A DNA stretch of 64,000 bases from Lota lota. Lineage: Eukaryota; Chordata; Actinopteri; Gadiformes; Lotidae. Below the pieces are notes generated by a model. The model searched no databases, was not told the DNA's origin, and was given only the letters and a program-made list of their open reading frames with translations. Shown piece by piece: positions 8,077 through 53,847 of this stretch. How positions within the stretch are numbered: position 1 is the first letter of the stretch; every line of letters starts with the position of its first letter. Position numbers and translations under genes: made by a program. The stretch spans positions 713,501-777,500 of the forward strand of contig JACYXH010000239.1 of the NCBI GenBank assembly GCA_026745465.1. The letters run 5' to 3'.

Positions 8077-11334
<3,258 letters not shown>

Positions 11335-12571
11335 GTTGACAGACCAAACACGGGCTAGACCTGCAGATGCTGTGGGTGGAAGCTTTGAATGTGTTTTTTC
11401 TTTTACTTCCCCAAACCAAAATGAAATATCGTATGACTGGTTCGACCACTCCTCACCAATTTCAATTCCAAAAACAGACATCGTCAAATATAATAACATG
11501 CATTGGATTAACCACTAGTGCTAATTTGTATTATGTTCCAAACTCATCATTTAACTGATATATGGACAAACAAAAGCCATTTTCATGTTGTTTTATTGTT
11601 TTATTGCTTGCAAAATGTACCGGATACTAATTTCAGACAGATAAATGTTTAAAATACCAATCAGCATCATTATGAATAAACATTTTTATTATAAGAATGT
11701 GTTACAGTTAACACATATTTTTGTGGTTGATTCTAAATATAATTTAAAAAGGGGTTTCGGAGATATTTGGATGGCAATAAATACAATGTTTCTATCGACG
11801 CCAATTTTAATAAATATATAAAAATATATATACACATGACCGTGGAGGCTACATAGGAATACACCAACGTTGTTATTATTATTACAACGCATTATTAAAT
11901 TGACTGAACAACATACTTTTGGAAGAACTCCCTGGTGACGTCTCCATAAAGGGGCGTGTCCACTTCCTTTCCAATAAGAAGGAGGAGAAGGAGAACACCT
12001 GTAGGCAAGCCAGAGTTAGATGCTGTAGTTGTGTGTTTGAGTGTGTGTGTGTGTGTGTGTGTGTGTTCATTGCAGCTGTATGCTACGATATCTACACACT
12101 CTGGCTACTCCTATCATCCACCACTCTTTCAAAACTTCATAAAGTGTCAGCTTTGTCCTGATAACGACCCACTCGAAAGGCGATTTCTCATCTCATCTCA
12201 TCTCATCTCATCTCATGAGTGAGGTACAGTCAATGCTCAACTTACTGTACTTTAGCCTCTTGTCTTTAGCTACAATTAAAACGCGTAGCTAACGACTGAG
12301 GGCTAATTATCGGCTAAATAGCTCGTTAATCATCCACGGGTGGCAGAATCACACGTAGATGTTTGAGTAAATGTTAGAATCGCTCTTAGGTGTTGTTGTG
12401 AGCTAAATAATGATACGGATTGTTGTAATAAGTAACTTTATGGTGGATGTGAGTTGCCAACCAGGATCAGGGAAACACTCTGTACTTTAGCATTTTTCTG
12501 ATATATGGTGTTATTTACAGCTAAATATCATTCGCTGTGATACTCCTTTGATACTCCTTTTGTTCTAAATC
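11335..12571. promoter_or_regulatory. Divergent gmfb / lgals3 promoter interval (unit 1)
   Basis: 1.24 kb between the gmfb ATG (minus) and the lgals3 copy A ATG (plus). It contains a CRE-like TGACGTC (11936-11942), a GGGGCGTGTCC GC/KLF-like box just after it, a short GT run (about 12038-12066) and a (TCTCA)n run (about 12186-12216). The same interval is preserved in unit 2 at 19780-21038 without the long TCTCA run. Head-to-head genes across a conserved duplicated interval suggest a shared promoter; that is inference. Confidence 0.55.
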
Positions 12572-15500
12572 ATGGAATTTTCGGTGAGTAGAAATAGTTG
12601 TATTTCATGTAGGCTACGCCTAGGCATCGCCTTATGGGCTTGTCCCATAAGGCGTGTCAAAGGTGTCAAAACCAAGGTGAGACCATGGAATCAGAGAGGA
12701 ATGCACGGCCTATCACAAATTGTAACAATTGTGGAGGTAGCCACGCAGCTACGAGAGAAAATTGCCCAGCATATGGTCAACAGTGTCACACATGTAAGAA
12801 ATGGAACCATTACAAAACGTGTTGCAGATCAACACAGCAGCACCATAGCACACAGAGACATAGGAAATCTGTCAATCAACTAGAACCAGCCCGAGCCACG
12901 AGTAGTAGCGATGATGATTCATACTATGTGGATGGAATAACACTGGAGAACGTTGACACAGTATACTCTCGTGCTAAGGAGAAAGGTGAAGCATTCACCA
13001 CTGTCCACGTCAATGGCAAGCCCATCGAAATGAAAGTCGATACAGGGGCAAAATGCAACGTCATGTCACATGATACATTCAAACGTGTGAAGAACAGGGA
13101 AGAAATAGACTGTTCAAGAATCAAAAAGAGATGGAACAAACACGTTTCTAAACCTGAGAAACATCCCTCGAGATGCACAGCTAGGCTCACCGGCACAAAG
13201 ACTTATGTCAAGGCAGTTGCTAGAGCCTGCAGCCCGTAACACCCAACAAGTCCAGGCTCAACTCCTAAAGAAAAGACTCTCCCAAAGGCGGAGTTATGAC
13301 AAGTCAAGCCGTCCACTACGGGCCCTGTCTGAAGGTGAAGCAGTCAGGATGCAGACCCCCCAAGGGTACAACCGCATGGGCATGGTAAAAGAGGTCTGTA
13401 GGGAACCAAGATCCTACCACATCCAGTCTGAAGGCAGGGAGTACAGGAGAAATCGCAGACGTATCCTACCTGTAGCCGAGCCACCTCCAGAGTTGTCCAC
13501 CGACGCAGACCCGCAGCACTTCAATCCAGCTGTAGAGGAAACTCCCCATCCCTTTGCAGAGAAGCCCAACTGCATAGACTCTGAAACGACCCCAGCTCAA
13601 GAGCCCATAGCTCTGATGGCAACACGCATCAGTGGGTGCCCATACCAAACACGCTCAGGTCGTGTTAGTAGGCCGAACCCCAAATACAAAGACTGAGTGA
13701 TTTGAATGTGTGGACATTAAGCACAACATGCTCAGTCTTGCAAAATGTTCTGAAAGATTGTTATGTAGTTTTGAGTTAGATTACATGCCATGTTTTGTTT
13801 TCTTCCATACCTAATAGCTTGTTTGGATGAACATTGAAATGTTATTATTTATCTTAGCCATGTTTTGTTTTGTGTTAGGGCTACAAGCTATAGAGAGAGG
13901 ATGTAGATCATTCGCAATGTGCTGTTTGAATGTGCTCCTATGGCAGCCACCGTACTTGACTGTGCATGCGCAGTGGTGGGGGCGCCCCTCTAGGTATTCT
14001 GGTAGTAACATAATGTTGGTCTAGGACTTACCATTGTGTTAAAATAAAAGTACTACTCTTACAAAGTATTCCCTCCATATCTGGTCATTCAACATCCACT
14101 ATCAAAGTCTATGCGGTAGCCGTTTCGGCTGGCCGTGCAGAATATGACGGAAAACCGGTTTTCAGTCACCCACTAGTCAAGAGATTATTGTGTGGGATTA
14201 GACGTGTTAAACCTGTTTCTCGTGTGCTTACACCGCATTGGGATCTTCCCACCGTGTTGCGTGGTTTATCCAAGGACCCTTTCGAGCCTCTGTCTCAAGC
14301 CCCTTTGGATGTCCTTTCCTTTAAAACTGCGCTCTTATTAGCTTTGGTTTCTGCCAAACGTGTCGGTGAGTTGGCCGCACTGTCTGTCAGCCCGAGCTGC
14401 TTGATATTGAACGAGGACAGCTCCTTCGCGCTGCTTAGACCCAATCCTGTGTCCCTCCCCAAGAACATATTCAGGTCTTTTCGGTCGAGGGATATTGTGC
14501 TTAAGGCTTTTCACCCCCCCCCCCCCCGCCTCATACTAGTGAAGCGGAGGCGGAGTTGCATCTCCTGTGCCCGGTGCGGGCATTGGCTATGTACGTGAAA
14601 CGATCACCTGAGTTTCGCTCCACACAACAGTTGTTTGTGTGTTATAGCGACGCTGCCAAGGGCCGCGCTCTTTCTAAGCAGCCTCTGTCCCGCTGGATAT
14701 GTAAGGGTGTCTGCTTAGCCTACACTCGGCAGGGCTTAGCGTCCCCTTTGGGTGTTAGAGCTCACTCTGCACAAGGGATGGCCGCTTCGTCGGCCCTATT
14801 CAAGGGAATTTCGGTAGAAGACATTTGCGCGGCTGCGTCATGGTCTTCCCCCGATCCTTTTAATCGCTTTTTACATGTTAGACATGTCCAGGGGCTCACT
14901 CGGCCACTCTGTGTTGGAGTCGGGCTTCCTCTCTACGAATTAGATATTGGTTTATCGCTCATCAGAGCCTGTTACGCTCGTGATGTCGCTCAGCTTCATT
15001 CTCTCTCCGCTGTCACCCGGTGGTGTTACAGCGTGGGCACTGAGCTTAGGAGTGACAGGTTATTATTACTCTGATTACGGTTGGTAACTGCCGTTTAATA
15101 TCCTGTCCTCTATTATTAAACATTGCACAACAGGTTTCCTCCTGCCGCCTCTTTGAGCGTAGGTAGGAAGGGCCTTGTTGCTCGTTGCTTTTGGTAGCTT
15201 GGTTTTCTTCCTAGCTCCGTCCCTATGGTAGCGGACGTAGGAGAAGCCTTGTTTCTCTGCATTCCCTCTTTTTCATGTTAATTGAAATACGGGTTGAGTC
15301 AGAGTTACAGACTCACACTGTTCTCTTTACACGCCTACAATGTATACGCCTACAATCATAGAACTAGAGTTATAATAACTTACCTATCGTTTCTTTCTAT
15401 CATTTCTTTCTTTTTTTACAACTTTATTTATAACCATGTTTATGGCGATGTTTACAACGAGGCCCTATAGTTGAACCTCTTTAGATTATTTTTCAACTAA

Positions 15501-18111
15501 AACTTTATTAGTGATGTGAAGGACAATGTGTGCATAGCCCTAAGGCTCGAGAGTGGACTTTATTAGAACATTGTTCAGCTATAACTTTATTTGTGATTAT
15601 TCCATGATGTGGTGCTAAGGCTCAATAGTTCAGCCTTTTTGAACATTGTCAACTATAACTTTAAGTTACCTTCTATGACAATGTGCGAACAGGCCTGAAG
15701 AGCCATGGTTAAACCTATTCTAATATTTGAACATTGTTCAACGACAACTTTATTTGTGATGTATTTCTATGACAACGTGCTTCAATACCCATTTTCAATG
15801 TTGCTGTCCCTCAAAGGTTTTGGGGTAAACCAATGTAATTGTGGGTATCCATCCTTTACTTATCGATCGTGGTTAGTATATAAGAACAGAATTCCTCCAT
15901 AGTTTACAGGACTAGATCTACTGCTTTAAACTGAATCATTTCTCTCTCTCTCTCTCCCTCTCTCTCTCTCCCTCCCACCCTCTTCATCTTCTCCCTTCGT
16001 CTTCTTCTCCTTCTTCCAGATGGTTCCCTACGACCTGGCCCTTCCCACCGGGATAATGCCCAACCTCCTGATCACCATTGTGGGGGAGCCCATCGATGGG
16101 GATGGCAGGTACCCCCAGAACTTCATCCCTCATTTAGCCGACACTTACCCAAAGATGCTTGCAGTGAATGCAGATGCATGTCATTTAGGAGCAGGCTGGG
16201 AGATGGCTCAATCTCGCTGTAGGAGGCTGACAGGTGGACCGTGGACATGGGGGATCGAACCCAGAACCTTTCCCGGCTGGTGGTTGAATGCCCTAACCAC
16301 TACTCTCTCCTACCTATATTGATGGGGACTATAGATAGGTTATTTTTAGAAGTAGGAGAATATAACAAATATTATACAGTGAGCCTTTTCAACAGTTAGT
16401 GGCTAAGAAGAAATAGGACTTTGTGATCCAAATACATCAGTAAATCATTTATCCATCGTTAAAGTGGTCATATCTAAGATTTGAATGTAAATAAAGGTAT
16501 TTTAAGTCACATCAGAGATATATATATTGCTGATTGAGGTAGCACTATGATGATTGAGCCTATGGCCCACCGAGGAAAGCCCTTGCATTTGCAGTTTTAT
16601 GAGTGTTATGAACTGGAGGTCAGTGGGGTCAGTTGGATCTAAGCTCGCACAGCTATAGAGAATAACTTACAATAACTTCGGCTTGATAAAGAAGAGAATT
16701 ACTCAAGAGTAATAATAATATTGAGCTCTAATCCTGAGGACCTTATCGTACGATATATGGACATGACCTTGATCATTGTAGCTGACTTCGGGATTGCTCA
16801 TTGTCTTTACATGCGTGTTTACATAAAATAATTAACGTCATCAATATTTTAGCCAGCCTCGCTTCTTCTGTCCTCTCGTTGGCGCTGTGTGGGAGGCGGG
16901 GCTCTGAGTGGGAGGCGGGGCTTTGTGTGGGAGGCGGGGCTGTGTGTGGGAGGCGGGGCTGTGTGTGGGAGGCGGGGCTCCGACCGCTCCGCCATACACA
17001 CAGCAGACAGCGACCGGTGAAGATAACCGATTACTCGAGGCTAAACGGTGTTTAAATACCTGTTGGTCTGATGACCGCATCATTTTATATCTTTTTTTTT
17101 GTTCCATTTCCGGTGTCCTTGTTCTTAATTCTTAAGATGTTCGTTCAAATTAAAAGTTTGTTGCTCTTTGAAAGGGTATTATTGCGTTATAATGCTGATA
17201 CATTATCATTATTTAAGTGGCATAAAATGACAACTATAAAGTTTATTGTAATTATTTCTGGGACAATATATCGTCCAACAATTATGGTTATCGTGATGCG
17301 CCTAAATATGGGCATACCGACAAAAAAGTGTAACCGTGGTAGAACCCGCCCAACTGCCGTTACGGGTGCATCACTCAGGGGTGGGGGCGTGATGGGTGGT
17401 GGTGGTGTTGGGTGGAGGACTCAGCAGTCTCTGCTCTCTCCTGCAGGTTCAGCGTGAACTTCATGAAGGGGTCTGACTTGGTGTTCCACTTCAACCCCCG
17501 CATGCCAGAGCAGACCATCGTCAGGAACGCCTACCTGGGGGGCAGCTGGGGCACTGAGGAGTGCGACGGAGGCTTCCCCTTCGCACCCGGACGCCAGTTT
17601 GAGGTAAGACACATAACGTGTTGCATCGGGTTATTCAGCAAACACTTTAATCCAGAGGGACCTGAGGATTCAGAGGGTTGCAGGTAGGCTGAGTTCACTG
17701 GGGAATCGAACCCAGAGGCTTTTGGCTGGGAGTTACTCTCAATCTAATCAAATGTGTCTGCTGAACACACAACCACATGCATGTGCACACACGCACACGC
17801 AGGCTAGGTCAATACAGCTTGCTCCTTTTACTCCATGTGTTCTCAGACCAGTGCCTGTTCTCCTCTGGGGCAGGGCATCCTGCTTGTTAACTGATCTCTC
17901 TCTCTCTCTCTCTCTCGCTCTCGCTCTCGCTCTCGCTCTCGCTCTCGCTCTCCAGCTGAAGATCCTGGTGGAGGTCGACTCGTTCAAGGTGGCGGTGGAC
18001 AGCACCCACGTGCTGGAGTTCCAGCACCGGATGGGGGGTCTGGAGGAGGTGACCCTGGTGCAGATCAGCGGAGACTTGCAGCTCAGCAGCGCCACGGCCA
18101 GCATGATCTAA
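12572..18111 (+). CDS. lgals3 copy A: galectin-3-like gene that lost its Pro/Gly-rich exon
   Basis: Beta-galactoside-binding lectin gene, left copy. Exons seen: 12572-12583 (MEFS), 16020-16108 (MVPYDLALPTGIMPNLLITI and following), 17447-17603 (FHFNPRMPEQTIVRNAYLGG, WGTEEC) and 17956-18111 (FKVAVDSTHVLEFQHRMGGL, ISGDLQLSSATASMI, TAA). The exon holding the N-terminal Pro/Gly domain in copy B is absent; 12600-15412 is foreign sequence with two retroelement fossils instead. Exon 1 ends in phase 0 and the next galectin exon starts in phase 0, so direct splicing gives 414 nt, 137 aa, a prototype-like single-domain galectin. The H-N-R, V-N, W and E sugar-contact residues are present, but the last Arg of the WGxEER motif is Cys. 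It could be a decaying pseudogene or a working CRD-only lectin; sequence alone cannot decide. Confidence 0.7.
12600..14095 (+). mobile_element. Ty3/gypsy-like LTR retrotransposon fossil
   Basis: Parts visible on the plus strand: a gag nucleocapsid region with two Cys/His zinc knuckles (near 12720-12830), a retropepsin region with the DTGA active-site motif (near 13000-13080), then an integrase C-terminal region (near 13205-13695). A non-coding tail with an AATAAA follows at about 14045, perhaps part of the 3' LTR. Most of pol is missing and the element is broken. It is absent from the equivalent place in lgals3 copy B, so it postdates the duplication or was lost there; a young-to-moderate age is likely. 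Confidence 0.8.
14100..15280 (+). mobile_element. DIRS-like tyrosine-recombinase retroelement fossil
   Basis: Open pieces at about 14188-15074 resemble the tyrosine recombinase of teleost DIRS elements, with an SAKRVGELAAL motif, a LLCPVRALAMYVKR stretch and a RAHSAQGMAASSALFKGIS stretch. Only the recombinase end is present and the element is broken. It abuts the gypsy-like fossil directly, and neither is in lgals3 copy B. Confidence 0.7.
15413..15860 (+). repeat. Degenerate tandem array, unit about 85 bp (lgals3 copy A)
   Basis: About five diverged units around the motif AACTATAACTTTATTTGTGA, each followed by a TCTATGACAATGTGC-like stretch. The same array lies in copy B at 22845-23290, so it predates the duplication. 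Confidence 0.7.
16126..16315 (-). repeat. tRNA-derived SINE, reverse orientation
   Basis: Starts CATTTAGCCGACACTTACCC (reversed tail) and ends at a reversed B box (GGGGATCGAACCCAGAACC), 18 bases after the donor of lgals3 copy A exon 2. Only its first 45 bases remain in copy B (23549-23595). Confidence 0.85.
16875..16982. repeat. 17-bp GC-rich minisatellite (GTGTGGGAGGCGGGGCT)n
   Basis: Five to six copies with small variants; each contains a GGGAGGCGGGGC GC-box-like core. It lies in the copy A intron and is absent from copy B. Confidence 0.9.
17628..17740 (-). repeat. SINE fragment (copy A)
   Basis: Reversed tail and B-box ends (TTATTCAGCAAACACTTTAA, then GGGGAATCGAACCCAGAGG) starting about 25 bases after an exon donor. 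The same insertion is at 23950-24085 in copy B, so it predates the duplication. Confidence 0.8.
17898..17955 (+). repeat. (CT)n/(CTCTCG)n tract forming the splice acceptor of lgals3 copy A last exon
   Basis: About ten CT units then seven CTCTCG hexamers run straight into CTCTCCAG. Copy B has a shorter version (24109-24151). Confidence 0.9.
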
Positions 18112-18563
18112 GCCCTCCGCGCCTCGCGGTGGTCCCCATCCAGAACCCCACCCGTTCTGCCGTTCTTCTCTTTTAAAGCATGAAAAAGCGTGTCCTATTG
18201 AATTCTACATTAATATCCAATTCTGCCATGGATCTGGCAGAGCAATTGCAGTGATCATGCATTTCTTGCGTATAAATAAAGATGACAAGAGACAACTTAA
18301 CGAACCGTGTGGATTGTGAATTATGTTACTTAAATGAACCAAAGACTTAAGTTATGAGCTTGGAACATACAGAAAATAAACGTTTTCCCCAAATATCGCC
18401 TCCTAAACTTGTGTCGCGGACTGCGTCCTCCACTGTGCCATGCGCCTTGGTTCAGCCATAGGTCACCATCTAAAATAAGAAGTGCCGCTTCTTACTAGCA
18501 GGGGGCGGTACGATCCCTACAGAGCTGCGCGGGGGAAGAAGACAGCCAGCAGACAGAATCGAA
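18112..18563 (+). other. lgals3 copy A 3' UTR and truncated duplicate of the synj2bp 5' flank
   Basis: After the stop codon the sequence matches the copy B 3' UTR with about 1.2 kb missing. A poly(A) signal is at 18275-18280. From there to 18563 it matches 25756-26043, which lies immediately upstream of synj2bp, ending about 117 bases short of that gene's ATG. Confidence 0.8.
18275..18280 (+). terminator. Poly(A) signal AATAAA, lgals3 copy A
   Basis: AATAAA in GTATAAATAAAGATGAC, conserved at 25756-25761 in copy B. Confidence 0.55.
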
Positions 18564-18700
18564 ACGCTAACAAAATAGCTAACACTATACACCTAGAGAT
18601 GTGTACCAATACAGAGTCCTTGAAATCACTTGACGGTTTTAAAAACTTTTTTTACTTTCACGTTCCTTTATTCTAACGCGCATTTTCTTTCGTTTTGTAC

Positions 18701-18714
18701 TTAGGGTTAGGGTT
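18701..18714 (+). other. Telomere-like motif TTAGGGTTAGGGTT at a deletion junction
   Basis: Two and a third vertebrate telomere hexamers sit exactly between sequence matching gmfb intron 5 (up to 9062) and sequence matching gmfb intron 2 (from 10399). Neither parent locus carries them. Confidence 0.8.
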
Positions 18715-18747
18715 GGTATTATAAACATTGTATGCACCATTATACAG

Positions 18748-19779
18748 TTATACAAAAAATGTGTACGCCTTCAGCTTTTCGACCAGCGCTTCGTCTACGT
18801 CACACACCACTAGAGATTCGCTCTGAAGGCAAACAGGGAAGATGTGAAAGGTCTTGAGAGACACACACACACACACCTCTGTGGTGTGGATGATTATTAT
18901 GGACCTTGTTCACTGGAGTGATCCTATACTATGTGTGTTTACATTGACCCACACAGCATGATGTAGCCTGAATATGTTGTCATTAAGTTAAGCTTTGAGG
19001 GTTCTGTTAATCAATTCTAGAGGATTTTAGTACATGTCCTGCTGGGTTCATACCAGAGGATAGGTCCACAGCACACCAACTCAATTGACGAACACCACTG
19101 AAATATACATGCTTTTGCCCTAATAAAACACATTATTACACATATTTAAAAAAACACAATAGGGCGATATATCCTTTTAAATATCTGAAATATCTGCTTT
19201 CTGCAGATATTTCCTGTTTATGGGCACTACAAACACTCCACCGAATCGAATGTCTTTCCGTCGTGAAAAGCTGGCTACTAACGTTAGGAGTTAACGATAT
19301 TCGCAAAATAACAACATATTCGGTTCGTTGTGGTGCTTTTATTCGGAACTAAACGTAAGACTACAGCGGTGGTATTGGTAAAGACATGCCTGCAAATGTG
19401 CTTTGTGGACAGTTTTGACAGGAAATGAATCACGAACGCTCAGCAACTCATTAAAAAGAACTCCCAGGAAACTATCCAACTAATTGTATCATAATCATAG
19501 GTCTATGCGCTGCTGGTGACACCACAAAGATGCAGAAAATGCAGAAAAACGGAATCTTGATAGGAATGCAAGCTCTATGCGAAGTCCTCAAACCGAGACG
19601 TGCGCGAGCAGATCTCCACCCATACAGGATGTCAACTACAGCTAGCATGCTATCGCTAGCAGACGCGCGAGCCTACTTTCTTACTGATCATTATTATGAC
19701 GCGTGTTAAAGGTAATACTAAGAGGGTAGATCTATGTCAAAACGAGTCCATTCGTTGATTATGTGCCAAAACTGACCAT
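18748..19779 (-). pseudogene. gmfb 5' fragment (duplicate pseudogene)
   Basis: Exon 1 (ATG at 19779-19777, donor GTCAGT instead of GTAAGT) and the first 57 bases of exon 2 (from 18832) survive. After [19 protein letters not shown] the frame runs into a deletion joint, reads YTFFV and stops at 18750-18748. The exon 2 donor and all later exons are missing, so the product would be about 25 residues of an ADF-homology domain and non-functional. The divergent promoter is intact, so it may still be transcribed toward lgals3 copy A. Confidence 0.9.
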
Positions 19780-21038
19780 ATTGAAAGACCAAACACGGGC
19801 TAGACCTGCAGATGCTGTGGGTGGAAGCTTTGAATGTGTTTTTTTTTTATCTTTTTTTTTACTTCCCCAAACCAAAATGAAATATCATATGACTGGTTGG
19901 ACCACTCCTCATCAATTTCAATTCCAAAAACAGACATCGTCAAATATAATAACATGCATTGGATTAACAGCTAGTGCTAATTTGTATTATGTTCCAAACT
20001 CATCATTTAACTGATATATGGACAAACAAAAGTCATTTTCATGTTGTTTTATTGTTTTATTGCTTGCGAAATGTACCGGATACTAATTTCAGACAGATAA
20101 ATGTTTAAAATACCAATCAGCATCATTATGAATAAACATTTTTATTATAAGAATGTGTTACAGTTAACACATATTTTTGTGGTTGATTCTAAATATAATC
20201 TAAAAAGGTGTTTCGTAGATATTCGGATGGCAATAAATACAATGTTTGTAACGACGCCAATTTTAATTAATATATAAAAATATATATACACATTACCGTG
20301 GAGGCTACATAGGAATACACCAACGTTGTTATTATTATTACAACGCATTATTAAATTGACTAAACAACATACTTTTGGAAGAACTCCCTGGTGACGTCTC
20401 CATAAAGGGGCGTGTCCACTTCCTTTCCAACAACAAGAAGAAGGAAGAGAACTCCTGTAGGCAAGCTAGAGTTAGCTGCTGTAGTTGTGTGTTTAAGTGT
20501 GTATGTGTTTGTGTGTTCATTGCAGTTGTATGCTACAATATATACACACTCTGGCTACTCCTATCATCCACCATTCTTTCAAAACTTCATAAAGTGTCAG
20601 CTTTGTCCTGATAACGACCCACTCGAAAGGCGATTTCTCATCTCGTTCGGAGTGGAGTGAGGTACAGTCAATGCTCAACTTACTGTACTTTAGCCTCTTG
20701 TCTTTAGCTACAATTAAAACGCGTAGCTAACGACTGAGGGCTAATTATCGGCTAAATAGCTCGTTAATCATCCACGGGTGGCAGAATCACACGTAGATGT
20801 TTGAGTAAATGTTAGAATCGCTCTTAGGTGTTGTTGTGAGCTAAATAATGATACGGATTGTTGTAATAAGTAACTTTATGGTGGATGTGAGTCGCCAACC
20901 AGGAACAGGGAAGCATACGTTTCTCTGTACTTTTGCATTTTTCTGATATATGGTGTATTTACAGCTAGATGTCATTCGCTGTGATACTCCTTTGATAACT
21001 AGTTAAAGCGGATTTCTATTTAATTTTTGTTCTAGATC
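19780..21038. promoter_or_regulatory. Divergent promoter interval, duplicate (lgals3 copy B side)
   Basis: Near-identical to 11335-12571, including the TGACGTC (20392-20398) and GGGGCGTGTCC elements. This is the only upstream region available to the complete lgals3 copy. Confidence 0.55.
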
Positions 21039-24000
21039 ATGGATTTTTCGGTGAGTAGAAATAGTTTCTATCTTTTTTTTTTTTTCTGATTGACATATCA
21101 GCCTTTCGATTTATATTCCTAAATATATCAAACATATATTCTTTTTATCCAGATAGTAAAAAAAGTATAATTTCCTTTCCTTTCCATGGCAGCTCTCTGA
21201 TGCTATAGGAGATGACGTCTCAGGCAAGGCAAGTAACATAGGGCACACCAACCCATCTGCCCCCGCCGGCCACCCCCCAGCCCCCACCAACCCTGGCTGG
21301 CCCGGCTCTGCCCCCGGGGCCCCCACACAGCCCACGGCCCCCGGCGGCATGCCTGGAGGCCCGTCCGGGCCGGGTGCACCGGGTCAGTTCCCTGGTAGCC
21401 CGTACCACACTGGCCCCCAGGCCCCAGGCCAGTACCCCGGGCCTCCCTCGGTACCCGGGGGATACCCAGCGGGTCCCTGCGTCCCTGGACAGTATCCATC
21501 CGGACCCGGAGCTCCGGGCCAGTTCCCCTCCGGCCCCGGTGCCCCGGGACCCTTCCCTGGGCCTTTCCAAGGGCAGTACCCCCCCGAGGCGGCCCCGGGA
21601 CAGCTCCCCGGAGCCCCGGTCCCCTACCCATCTGGACCCTTTCACTCCGGCCCCGGGGCCCCTCCCGGACCCTACCCCAACATGCCCTTCCCCGGGGGTC
21701 AGCCCGGAGCCGGGAACGGGATCTACGGACCCGGGGACCCAGGGGCCTTCCCCCCTGCCGCCGGCCCGGGGCACTTCCCTGGGTTCCCGGGCGGGGCCTT
21801 CCCTCCCATGCCCCCGGGGACCTGGGGGTCGCCTGGAGGAGGCGGCTTCCCTCCTGCCCCCGGGCCCTTCGGGGCGCCCATGGGGCCCTACGGGGGCCCG
21901 GCCCCTCCAGGCAACATGCTGGTGAGTCTAAAATAGTTCAACATCATCTGCATATCAGCGACTTGCTTGCTTGTGGTGTTCAGTGGTGACTGGTGGTAAT
22001 GGTGGACTCTAGAATGGGTCTGCGGCTCTTCTGGTTGTGGTGGTTGTGGAGTAGGACGACTCTTTGATTGTAGAGCAGGCGGTTATGGTGGTGACGGTGG
22101 GACATTGGGCTGACGGGTTGAAGTCTAGCTGAGGCTGCAAGGTTTTGTGCTGAGGTTGCGCCGCTGGGGGCTGCATTCTTCCGACCCCTCCCCCGTCAGA
22201 GGGTCGCTGGTGCAGTGGGATTGCCGGCTCATGCAGATGAATAAACAAACGGACAGAACCGACTGTACGTGTAGTCATCCACGCTGTATTCTTGTGTTCC
22301 AGTCCAGGTTTTATCCGCCGTATCGTTGACCGCAATCATCTAGTCAGTGACCGATCAAGACCAAGGCGGCGCCTCCCTTGTCTACTGATGGTTTCAGCGG
22401 TTGATTTACAAAAGGCTGCGTTCCTGCAGCTGCAGGTTCACCCGTCATGGCGGGGTGAAAGTGCAGTATGATGTCTGACCTTTTGCATTGTTTCTAAAAA
22501 CAGAAATAAATATATATATATATAAATATACTCAAGCTTATTTTTCATGCAGATTTATCGTTCCCATTCAGTTATGAGCATTACATATAACGTAAACCAC
22601 CATGTCTTCCTGATTACATGAAGTTCTCATCTTACATTAAATTGTAATGATCTTTGTTTTTCCAAGAAATAAAATGGCTCTGGTTTCTAAGTTAGCTTGT
22701 TTGTCCTTATAATATCCCCCATGGTTGCCAGTGACTTGCGTAAGACTGGAGGAAGGTCCACCAGGAGAGGTTGACTCATTGGAACTGTGGTCATTGTGAT
22801 GTGATGTGGAATGTGGGTGAGGTGCAAACCCAACTTCAACTAAAACTTTATTTATAACCATGTTCATGACGATGTATACGACGAGGCCCAATAGAACCTC
22901 TTTAGATTATTTTTCAACTAAAACTTTATTAGTGATGTGAAGGACAATGTGTGCATAGCCCTATGGCTCGAGAGTGGACTTTATTAGAACATTGTTCAGC
23001 TATAACTTTATTTGTGATTATTTCCATGACGTGGTGCTAAGGCTCAATAGTTCAACCTTTTTGAACATTGTCAACTATAACTTTGTTACCTTCTATGACA
23101 ATGTGCGAACAGGCCTGAAGAGCCATGGTTAAACCTATTCTAATATTTGAACATTGTTCAATGACAACTTTATTTGTGATATATTTCTATGACAATATGC
23201 TTCAATACCCTTTTTCACTGTGGCTGTCCCCGCAGAGGTTTTGGGGTAAACCAATGTAATTGTAGGTATTTATCCTTTTTAAATATCGATCATGGTTAGT
23301 ATATAAGAACATAATTCCTCCATAGTTTACAGGACTAGATCTACTGCTTTAAACTGAATCATTTCTCTCTCTCGCTCTCTCTCTCTCTCCCTCCCACCCT
23401 CTTCATCTTCTCCCTTCGTCTTCTTCTCCTTCTTCCAGATGGTTCCCTACGACCTACCCCTTCACGCCGGGATAATGCCCAACCTCCTGATCACCATTGT
23501 GGGGGAGCCCATCCATGGGGGTGGCAGGTACCCCCAGAACTTCATCCCTCATTTAGCTGACACTTATCCAAAGATGCTTGCAGTGAATGCAGATATGCAA
23601 CAAGCGTGGTTATCGTGACGCGCCTAAATATGGGCATACCGACAGAAAAGTGTAACCGTGGTAGAACCCACCCAACTGCCGTTACGGGTGCATCACTCAG
23701 GGGTGGGGGCGTGATGGGTGGTGGTGGTGTTGGGTGGAGGACTCAGCAGTCTCTGCTCTCTCCTGCAGGTTCAACGTGGACTTCATGAAGGGGCCTGACG
23801 TGGTGTTCCACTTCAACCCCCGCATGCCGGAGCAGACCATCGTCAGGAACTCCAACCTGGGGGGCCGCTGGGGCCCCGAGGAGCGCGACGGAGACTTCCC
23901 CTTCGCACCCGGACGCCAGTTTGAGGTAAGACACACAACGTGTTGCATCGGGTTATTCAGCAAACACTTTAATCCAGAGGGACCTGAGGATTCAGAGGGT

Positions 24001-24307
24001 AACAGGTAGGCTGAGTTCACTGGGGAATCGAACCCAGAGGCTTTTGGCTGGGAGTTACGCTCTAACCACTACGCTCTTTCTCTCCATCACCCTCTCTCTC
24101 CACTCCTTCTGATCTCTCTCTCTTCCCCCTTCTCTCGCTCTCGCTCTCCAGCTGAAGATCCTGGTGGAGGACGACTCGTTCAAGGTGGCGGTGGACGGCA
24201 CCCACCTGCTGGAGTTCGAGCACCGGATGGGGGGTCTGGAGGAGGTGACCCTGGTGCGGATCATGGGAGACGTGCGGCTCTTCAGCGCCGCGCCCAGCAT
24301 GATCTAA
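21039..24307 (+). CDS. lgals3: Galectin-3 (lgals3 copy B), 5 coding exons, complete
   Basis: Chimera-type galectin: beta-galactoside lectin of cytosol, nucleus and extracellular space that oligomerises through its N-terminal domain. Exons: 21039-21050 (MDFS), 21193-21921, 23439-23527, 23769-23925, 24152-24307; 1143 nt, 380 aa. Exon 2 starts LSDAIGDD (human LHDALSGS) and encodes about 240 residues of Pro/Gly/Ala/Tyr/Phe repeats such as PGQFP and PGQYP, longer than the human domain (human protein 250 aa). The carbohydrate domain keeps HFNPR, IVRN, N and WGPEER, all the sugar-contact positions. The last strand reads IMGDVRLFSAAPSMI, while copy A (ISGDLQLSSATASMI) is nearer to human ISGDIDLTSASYTMI. 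The exon structure, with a tiny first coding exon, matches human LGALS3. The antisense frames of exon 2 are open only because of its GC-rich composition. Confidence 0.95.
21922..22844 (+). other. lgals3 copy B intron 2, upstream part
   Basis: No coding signal. GGT/GTGG-rich sequence near 21970-22120 and a short (TA) run near 22511. This part has no counterpart in copy A. Confidence 0.5.
22845..23290 (+). repeat. Degenerate tandem array, unit about 85 bp (lgals3 copy B)
   Basis: Partner of the array at 15413-15860, with the same unit order. It forms the downstream part of the intron after the Pro/Gly-rich exon. Confidence 0.7.
23950..24085 (-). repeat. SINE fragment (copy B)
   Basis: Same insertion as at 17628 in copy A, here with a fuller reversed tRNA head (CTCTAACCACTACGCTCTTT). 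Confidence 0.8.
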
Positions 24308-26160
24308 GCCCTCCGCGCCTCGCGGTGGTCCCCATCCAGAACCCCACCCGTTCTGCCAGCCAAACCGGGCCCCCTCTTTAGTCCAGCTGGGGCTAGGACC
24401 CCAGCCTCGCCGGACCCGTTCCCATCTATCGGTAGTGATTCAAGCATTTCTCACAGTTCTTAAACGATAAATGCTGGGAAATTAGCTTTTAAAGCATGAA
24501 AAAGCGTGTCTACATGAATATCCAATTCTGCCATGGATCTGGCAGAGCAATTGCAGTGATCATGCATTTCTTATGGTTTTAAAAGATAAATACCATGAAA
24601 TTAGCTGTTAAAGCATGAACAAATTGATCAGTATTTAATTGTACAGTAATATTCAATTTTGCCAATGATTTGGCGGCCCCCTTGCAGTACCCTCCCTGGC
24701 CACCGGAGGGCGGTAGCCCATAGAATGGTTTCGCTGATCTAACAAAAAACGACAACACCCACTGCAGCACACGCACCGCCACACACTGAGGACTTGAGTG
24801 TAAACCTCACCGCTGTAACCGGAAGCCCTTCTTGTTCAGACCACCTGGTGGAAATATACAGGCTCAGTCAGAAAAATCTACAAATCATATTTTAGGTTAG
24901 TATTATGTTCACCAGAAGTGAGCATCTAAACCACTTTGTGTCTATAAAGAGTTGCCTGCGTGGTGGTTTGCTACACAATTGTATTCCTTTGTATTTTCAA
25001 CTAAAAGACGTTAAGCTGACCTTTTACCACTAATACGACTAATAAACTATCACGACTCACATTGCAGACCAAAAGGAACGAGTTGTGCGCTCTTTATGTT
25101 TGACTCCATAGCAACACACTTCGCCATGTGTCAATCTGTGTTCACTCTGCTGTGCTTTGTATGGTCAAAATAGGCTTTTTTTCCCCAGATCCATCTGCAT
25201 GACTTGGTTTACTGTTGGCTGATAATCAATGAGCTGTCTTTCACGAAACGAGACGACCGATCAGGCATTTGAACCACCAGCTTGTTACTTATTAGGTCGG
25301 GGGTCATGTTAGTTTTATTTATTTTTTAGGGCCCCTGTTTTACCACTAGGTGTGACATTGATTAGCCATTACTAGGCATTTCAAAATCGACCCCTTTGGC
25401 GAGATCACAAGTGCCATGGTCTGCCCTGATGAATAAATTAACAATCCCATGTGTGATCGCTACAGGGGAGATCTTGTCAAGGCTGATCCTGGAACCTGGT
25501 GGGGAAATTGGGTGGGGGTGGGGGGGCTTGACGCAATATTTATGAGCCATGTTTGTCCCCTGCCTTTCTTCAGTACTCGGTATTGTTTTTGGTCACATAA
25601 AGATGTCACATTGAGTTTTACAACATAGGATTTAAATTTGAAGTGTCATAAAACATGAGTAGGGTTTAGAGACTGGAAAGTGATGTGCGGGGCGGGGGCG
25701 GTACAAATGTTTTCGCCGAAGACGTTATGGTTGTATTCCAGATTGTATGCGTATAAATAAAGATGACAAGAGACAACTTAACGAACCGTGTGGATTGTGA
25801 ATTATGTTACTTAAATGAACCAAAGACTTAAGTTATGAACTTGGAACATACAGAAAATAAACGTTTTCCTCAAATATCGCCTTCTAAACTTTTGTCGCGG
25901 ACTACGTCCTCCACTGTGCCATGCGCCTTGGTTCAGCCATAGGTCACCATCTAAAATAAGAAGTGCAGCTTCTTACTAGCAGGGGGCGGTACGATCCCTA
26001 CAGAGCTGCGCGGGGGAAGAAGACAGCCAGCAGACAGAATCGAAAGCGAAGCGATCGATCCAAAGTGCTGGATGAGGGGGGAAAAAAATAGTTTTGTCCC
26101 CCACCCCTTCGGATACACAGGACTGTAAAAAAAAAAGATTCACTGGACCCATTTAAAAAA
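24308..26160 (+). other. lgals3 copy B 3' UTR, then synj2bp 5' flank
   Basis: The poly(A) signal AATAAA lies at 25756-25761. About 24580-25750 is missing from copy A. From about 25760 the sequence is the promoter side and 5' UTR of synj2bp, GC-rich near 25975-26060. Confidence 0.6.
25756..25761 (+). terminator. Poly(A) signal AATAAA, lgals3 copy B
   Basis: AATAAA about 1.45 kb after the stop codon, conserved with 18275 in copy A. Confidence 0.5.

Positions 26161-45579: not shown

Positions 45580-53847
<8,268 letters not shown>

Follow-up and report, generated by a model that had tools for sequence, protein, structure and literature searches.

In the 64,000-nucleotide stretch of Lota lota DNA analyzed here (the window; assembly GCA_026745465.1, contig JACYXH010000239.1, forward-strand positions 713,501 to 777,500), two galectin-3 genes stand in tandem. 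The upstream gene, copy A, has lost the exon of its Pro/Gly-rich tail and holds a retroelement in its first intron; the splice acceptor of its start microexon is gone, a key arginine of its sugar-binding site is replaced by cysteine, and the frame of its carbohydrate domain (CRD) is intact. We lean toward regarding copy A as a young duplicate that, having lost these three features, is now decaying. Because copy A has lost a splice site as well as a key sugar-binding residue, a failing or retuned copy is likelier than the natural blocker of the adjoining copy B that an earlier, sequence-only reading had proposed.

Two Galectin-3 Genes in Tandem

With interruptions, the duplicated sequence of copy A extends over 8937-18564 and that of copy B over 18578-26045. 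Copy A is best read as the upstream one of two galectin-3 genes produced by a young tandem duplication; the exons and elements described below lie on the plus strand of the window. The assembly searched comprises 575 Mb in 867 contigs, the window being part of one of them. It also contains a third, distant galectin-3-like gene on the minus strand of contig C80 (1516500-1526400), which has its own long Pro-rich (Pro/Gly) tail and the arginine of the EER motif.

From its translation and splice-site table, copy B looks complete. It consists of a start microexon encoding MDFS with an intact acceptor (21039-21050), a tail exon of 243 codons (21193-21921) and three CRD exons, namely exon 3 (23439-23527), exon 4, which carries the EER arginine (23769-23925), and exon 5 with the stop codon (24152-24307), together encoding 380 amino acids. 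The tail exon is composed of 30% Pro and 25% Gly and contains one PSAP and one PTAP.

Copy A has a start microexon encoding MEFS (12572-12583), with coding bases and a donor (gtgagt) like those of copy B, followed by CRD exon 3, whose first codon is ATG (16020-16108), exon 4 (17447-17603) and exon 5 including the stop codon (17956-18111). The AG/GT splice sites of these CRD exons resemble those of copy B. When MEFS and the three CRD exons are joined in phase, they yield 137 amino acids with zero stops, and neither a frameshift nor a premature stop, the marks of a pseudogene, is found in the joined coding exons. The CRD scores 129.9-130.0 bits against the Pfam family Gal-bind_lectin (PF00337; cut-off 22.1), which places copy A in the galectin superfamily and is nearly equal to the 131.1 bits of copy B. 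Between the two copies the CRD exons show 0 indels in 402 bp, against 14 gaps in 2,073 bp of non-coding sequence. The matching CRD splice sites and the lack of indels argue against decay.

Each copy also contains sequence of its own. Copy B has about 1.2 kb after 24572 that is absent from copy A, and copy A has about 1.1 kb extra (16176-17275) in the intron that separates exon 3 from exon 4, including a short G-rich minisatellite with units of approximately GGGAGGCGGGGCT (16885-16990).

Loss of the Tail Exon and the Inserted Element

The Pro/Gly tail exon, which characterizes chimera-type galectins, is absent from copy A. Searched at the DNA level with the copy B tail exon plus the flank that follows it, the assembly gave a single match, copy B itself; simple repeats and very frequent words are passed over in this search. 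Homology between the copies ends at A12599/B21066 and restarts at A15417/B22841, enclosing 2,817 bp in copy A versus 1,774 bp in copy B.

The foreign block in copy A is best read as one internally deleted DIRS-like retroelement in intron 1 (12600-15397) with a nested gypsy-type fragment (12660-14094). The repeat ends of the outer element (12601-12640 and 15345-15396) find matches in other copies, and its inner part reaches up to 95% identity to multi-copy relatives. The name DIRS is our assignment; no family search returned it, and no Pfam family was found for the recombinase-side frames 14014-14598 and 14505-15071. The gypsy-type fragment, also recognized by multi-copy matches, shares 95-99% identity with its relatives in the gag part and 89-95% in most of the 3' part. 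The frame 12613-13236 gives weak matches to aspartyl-protease families (27.5 bits, cut-off 28.2; 24.8 bits, cut-off 24.3). Dating the insertion by element copies was abandoned, since identities of the gag, 3' and DIRS-like parts are too uneven. The sequence-only reading had described the tail exon as replaced by about 2.8 kb of retroelement fossils; the exon loss is borne out by the assembly search and the breakpoints, and the block looks like a single element with a nested fragment, not a row of independent fossils.

The left end of the element lies within two bases of the homology breakpoint and both repeat ends are present, so the insertion looks biological. To the right of the element, the residue 15398-15416 is similar to the T-rich intron 1 of copy B, at a score that 9.4% of shuffles also reach. 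The likeliest course of events would be that the DIRS-like element, with the gypsy-type fragment inside, came into intron 1 of copy A and that about 1.8 kb with the tail exon were lost in the same or a neighboring event. The microexon acceptor and the EER arginine were lost as well, and copy A would now be a mostly decaying paralogue. A sense AATAAA at 14043, inside the gypsy-type fragment, might moreover bring copy A transcripts to an early end.

The Start Microexon and Possible Splicing

Upstream of the copy A microexon the acceptor dinucleotide has been lost: positions 12567-12568 read AA (TTCTAA), versus AG in the copy B counterpart (TTCTAG, in ...TTTTTGTTCTAG), and 23 bases just upstream of the acceptor are missing in copy A relative to copy B. 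In human LGALS3 a small start exon comes after a UTR exon, and the C80 paralogue shows an acceptor-like ATTTCCACAG ahead of its start codon. Loss of such a conserved splice site is typical of a pseudogene, and the gene could also bypass the microexon. Exon 1 of copy A, earlier taken to be intact, is so in its coding bases and donor and not in its ability to be spliced. Likewise, the proposed splice from 12583 to 16020 into a 137-residue lectin retains its in-phase, stop-free frame, and the junction itself has become doubtful, since with the microexon acceptor destroyed it needs a cryptic site. A candidate for such a site is an AG ending at 12520 in copy A, which speaks against decay.

An alternative route is offered by exon 3, which in both copies begins with ATGG after a strong, pyrimidine-rich acceptor. 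As the exon opens with ATG, a leader spliced straight to 16020 could yield a CRD of 133 amino acids. If copy A makes a product at all, it would presumably be this one, an upstream leader joined directly to exon 3 and translated from the exon 3 ATG, and the resulting CRD would have no tail, would bind sugars more weakly or with a shifted preference, and would probably stay inside the cell. A CRD-only galectin is therefore possible in the sense that a tail-less CRD frame survives and could be expressed.

The Sugar-Binding Site and the Lost Arginine

Copy A differs from copy B in 29 codons, and 27 of these 29 alter the amino acid. One of them is codon 73 (17562-17564), which is TGC (Cys) in copy A and CGC (Arg) in copy B, according to the aligned translations. 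The C80 paralogue and the aligned solved galectin-3 chain both have arginine here, and the position corresponds to human R186. Copy A retains the HFNPR motif, the Asn and the Trp of the sugar-binding set; with its EER arginine replaced by Cys, it lacks the canonical residue set of galectin-3. The earlier description of the CRD exons as intact and phase-compatible thus holds for frame and splice sites (137 amino acids, AG/GT) and fails for the sugar-binding set.

The effect of losing this arginine has been described for human galectin-3, where R186S is reported to raise the Kd from 52 to 1200 µM for methyl-LacNAc and from 110 to 290 µM for methyl-lactose (PMC4933242). The same source gives cell agglutination as absent both with R186S and with human galectin-3C (PMC4933242). 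By analogy, sugar binding of the copy A CRD would be weakened or shifted. Galectin-8N has Ile at the EER arginine position in our alignment and is reported to bind galactobiose at 270 µM (PMC4933242), which argues against a simple "dead lectin" reading of copy A.

These observations leave room for an explanation other than decay, which we consider possible and clearly less probable: copy A could be a working CRD-only galectin with retuned binding, made as a 133-amino-acid protein from a leader and exon 3, its CRD diverging under positive selection. The ATGG opening of exon 3 behind a strong acceptor and the retained Pfam score are in its favor, as is the modest loss of methyl-lactose affinity reported for R186S, a retuning and not an abolition of binding (PMC4933242). 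The remaining evidence on this explanation comes from the comparison of substitution rates.

Substitution Rates and Tests of Decay

Between the copies, 3 of 94.3 synonymous sites (pS, 3.2%), 29 of 316.7 non-synonymous sites (pN, 9.2%) and 81 of 2,073 non-coding sites (3.9%) differ. pN exceeds the non-coding level (p = 1.2e-4, one-sided Fisher) as well as pS (p = 0.039), and pS agrees with the overall non-coding level. The non-coding baselines were chosen by us, and three were tried (81/2,073, 57/1,209 and 18/341); against 57/1,209, the two most diverged large non-coding blocks alone, the excess of pN persists (p = 0.0028) and counts in favor of a retuned galectin. A pN above the non-coding level points to selection on at least one copy, perhaps copy A, and to that extent argues against decay. 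It is no proof that copy A is maintained, since copy B, or both copies before the breakage, could carry the changes. Neutral dN/dS in the copy A CRD had been named beforehand as an outcome that would contradict a functional lectin; neutrality is not seen for the A/B pair, and the excess cannot be assigned to the copy A CRD.

Against a retuned galectin, the changes resist assignment by lineage: compared with the C80 paralogue and the solved galectin-3 chain, 6 fit copy A, 2 fit copy B and 18 of 26 are ambiguous. Nor are the differences significantly kept off conserved columns: paralogue and solved chain agree at 57 of 132 columns, and 8 of the 26 differences lie there (hypergeometric P = 0.11). 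A branch codon model in which the C80 paralogue served as outgroup (four models, no power, outgroup branch saturated) gave a shared A/B omega of 1.49 that is not separable from 1 (lnL -1058.50 vs -1058.79). The free branch omegas of 0.68 (A) and 14.54 (B) were discarded as not meaningful. A transition/transversion contrast between exons and non-coding sequence (p = 0.087) was left unused.

The preservation of the copy A frame is itself weak evidence of function, since the chance of at least one stop under neutrality is low, at 12%, 22% and 40% for 8, 16 and 32 neutral substitutions. Two profile-decay tests, which both start from the copy B sequence instead of the ancestor, disagree in their results. 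With the Pfam profile, copy A (130.0 bits) scores above 9/9 simulations with 8 and 9/9 with 16 substitutions, and this standing above all 18 neutral simulations, with a score close to that of copy B, argues against decay. With a local profile (copy A 128.8, copy B 135.5; 1,000 simulations each), 37.7% of simulations score at least as high as copy A at 8 substitutions, 5.3% at 16 and 1.3% at 20, so neutral change in copy A is not rejected at 8 substitutions, which in turn weighs against a retuned galectin.

In its most specific form, that alternative holds that element insertion and exon deletion made a genome-encoded single-CRD galectin starting from the exon 3 ATG, and that positive selection retuned its sugar site through the Arg to Cys exchange and neighboring changes; copy A would then be a natural galectin-3C gene with a new specificity and no antagonist. 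We hold this fuller scenario to be somewhat less probable than a retuned galectin in general.

Divergence along the duplication is patchy, with 6/298 differences in the 3' flank and 18/341 in the upstream intergenic blocks. Upstream of the start codon, 238 consecutive bases are identical between the copies (12217-12454 vs 20655-20892), and the neighboring non-coding blocks differ by about 4-5%. The identical stretch may be a kept promoter, a first-intron element or a conversion tract; a kept promoter would look like this, which is a further point against decay. The same patchiness could be taken to mean that the splice site, the Cys codon or the rate contrast is distorted, either by a mistake in the assembly or by patchy gene conversion between the copies. 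We regard such an artefact as very unlikely in view of the match between pS (3.2%) and the non-coding level (3.9%), the excess that persists against the fastest blocks and the biological appearance of the element, with its breakpoint-matching left end and both repeat ends.

Secretion, the Antagonist Model and Known Systems

The sequence-only reading had cast the 137-amino-acid MEFS-CRD protein as a natural glycan-competing antagonist of copy B. Its frame exists, human galectin-3C is described as keeping carbohydrate binding and is expected to be dominant negative (PMC3135605), and a natural galectin-3C is known from salmon mucus (PMC7074318). This salmon form, however, is reported to agglutinate cells and bacteria instead of merely blocking (PMC7074318). 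The protein would also require the lost microexon acceptor, and to compete with copy B its CRD must recognize the same glycans, against which stands the loss of the R186 equivalent, with a weakening of LacNAc binding to be expected if the R186S data apply (PMC4933242). In addition, the N-terminal part of galectin-3 is stated to be required for secretion, with P(S/T)AP named (PMC7074318); without its tail, copy A is without P(S/T)AP, and with tail and export motifs absent a secreted glycan competitor is unlikely. Taken together, we judge the antagonist model highly improbable.

Copy A shares with galectin-3 (LGALS3) the CRD family, exon order, phases and start microexon, copy B being a complete member, and differs in lacking the tail exon, a working microexon acceptor and the EER arginine. 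Like galectin-3C it is a lone galectin-3 CRD, but the galectin-3C forms, described from engineering and from salmon mucus, keep the sugar-binding set, whereas copy A has Cys for the arginine (PMC3135605, PMC7074318). Salmon galectin-3C is tentatively attributed to protein cleavage, a metalloprotease being suggested, whereas in copy A the tail is missing from the gene (PMC7074318). The human R186S mutant has lost the same arginine; it is engineered, has Ser instead of Cys and keeps its tail, whereas copy A is natural and tail-less (PMC4933242, PMC9527582). Among the matches listed in a narrow literature search, none was a genome-encoded tail-less galectin-3 paralogue. Galectin-8N, like copy A, has the galectin fold and departs from the canonical residue set. 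GRIFIN and the galectin-related proteins are also galectins with altered sugar sites; these and galectin-8N are old family members, whereas copy A is a young tandem duplicate.

An expressed copy A would be a natural experiment in which the tail, the contact made by R186 and the secretion of galectin-3 come apart; in the cited work they were separated by engineered mutants and cleavage (PMC3135605, PMC4933242, PMC7074318). If it is dead, copy A is an ordinary young duplicate with an exon lost beside a retroelement. The amino-acid change that separates the two CRDs is faster than neutral and merits attention under either reading. Elsewhere in the window, a minisatellite-like stretch at 53300-53800 is open in several frames on both strands and is probably non-coding.
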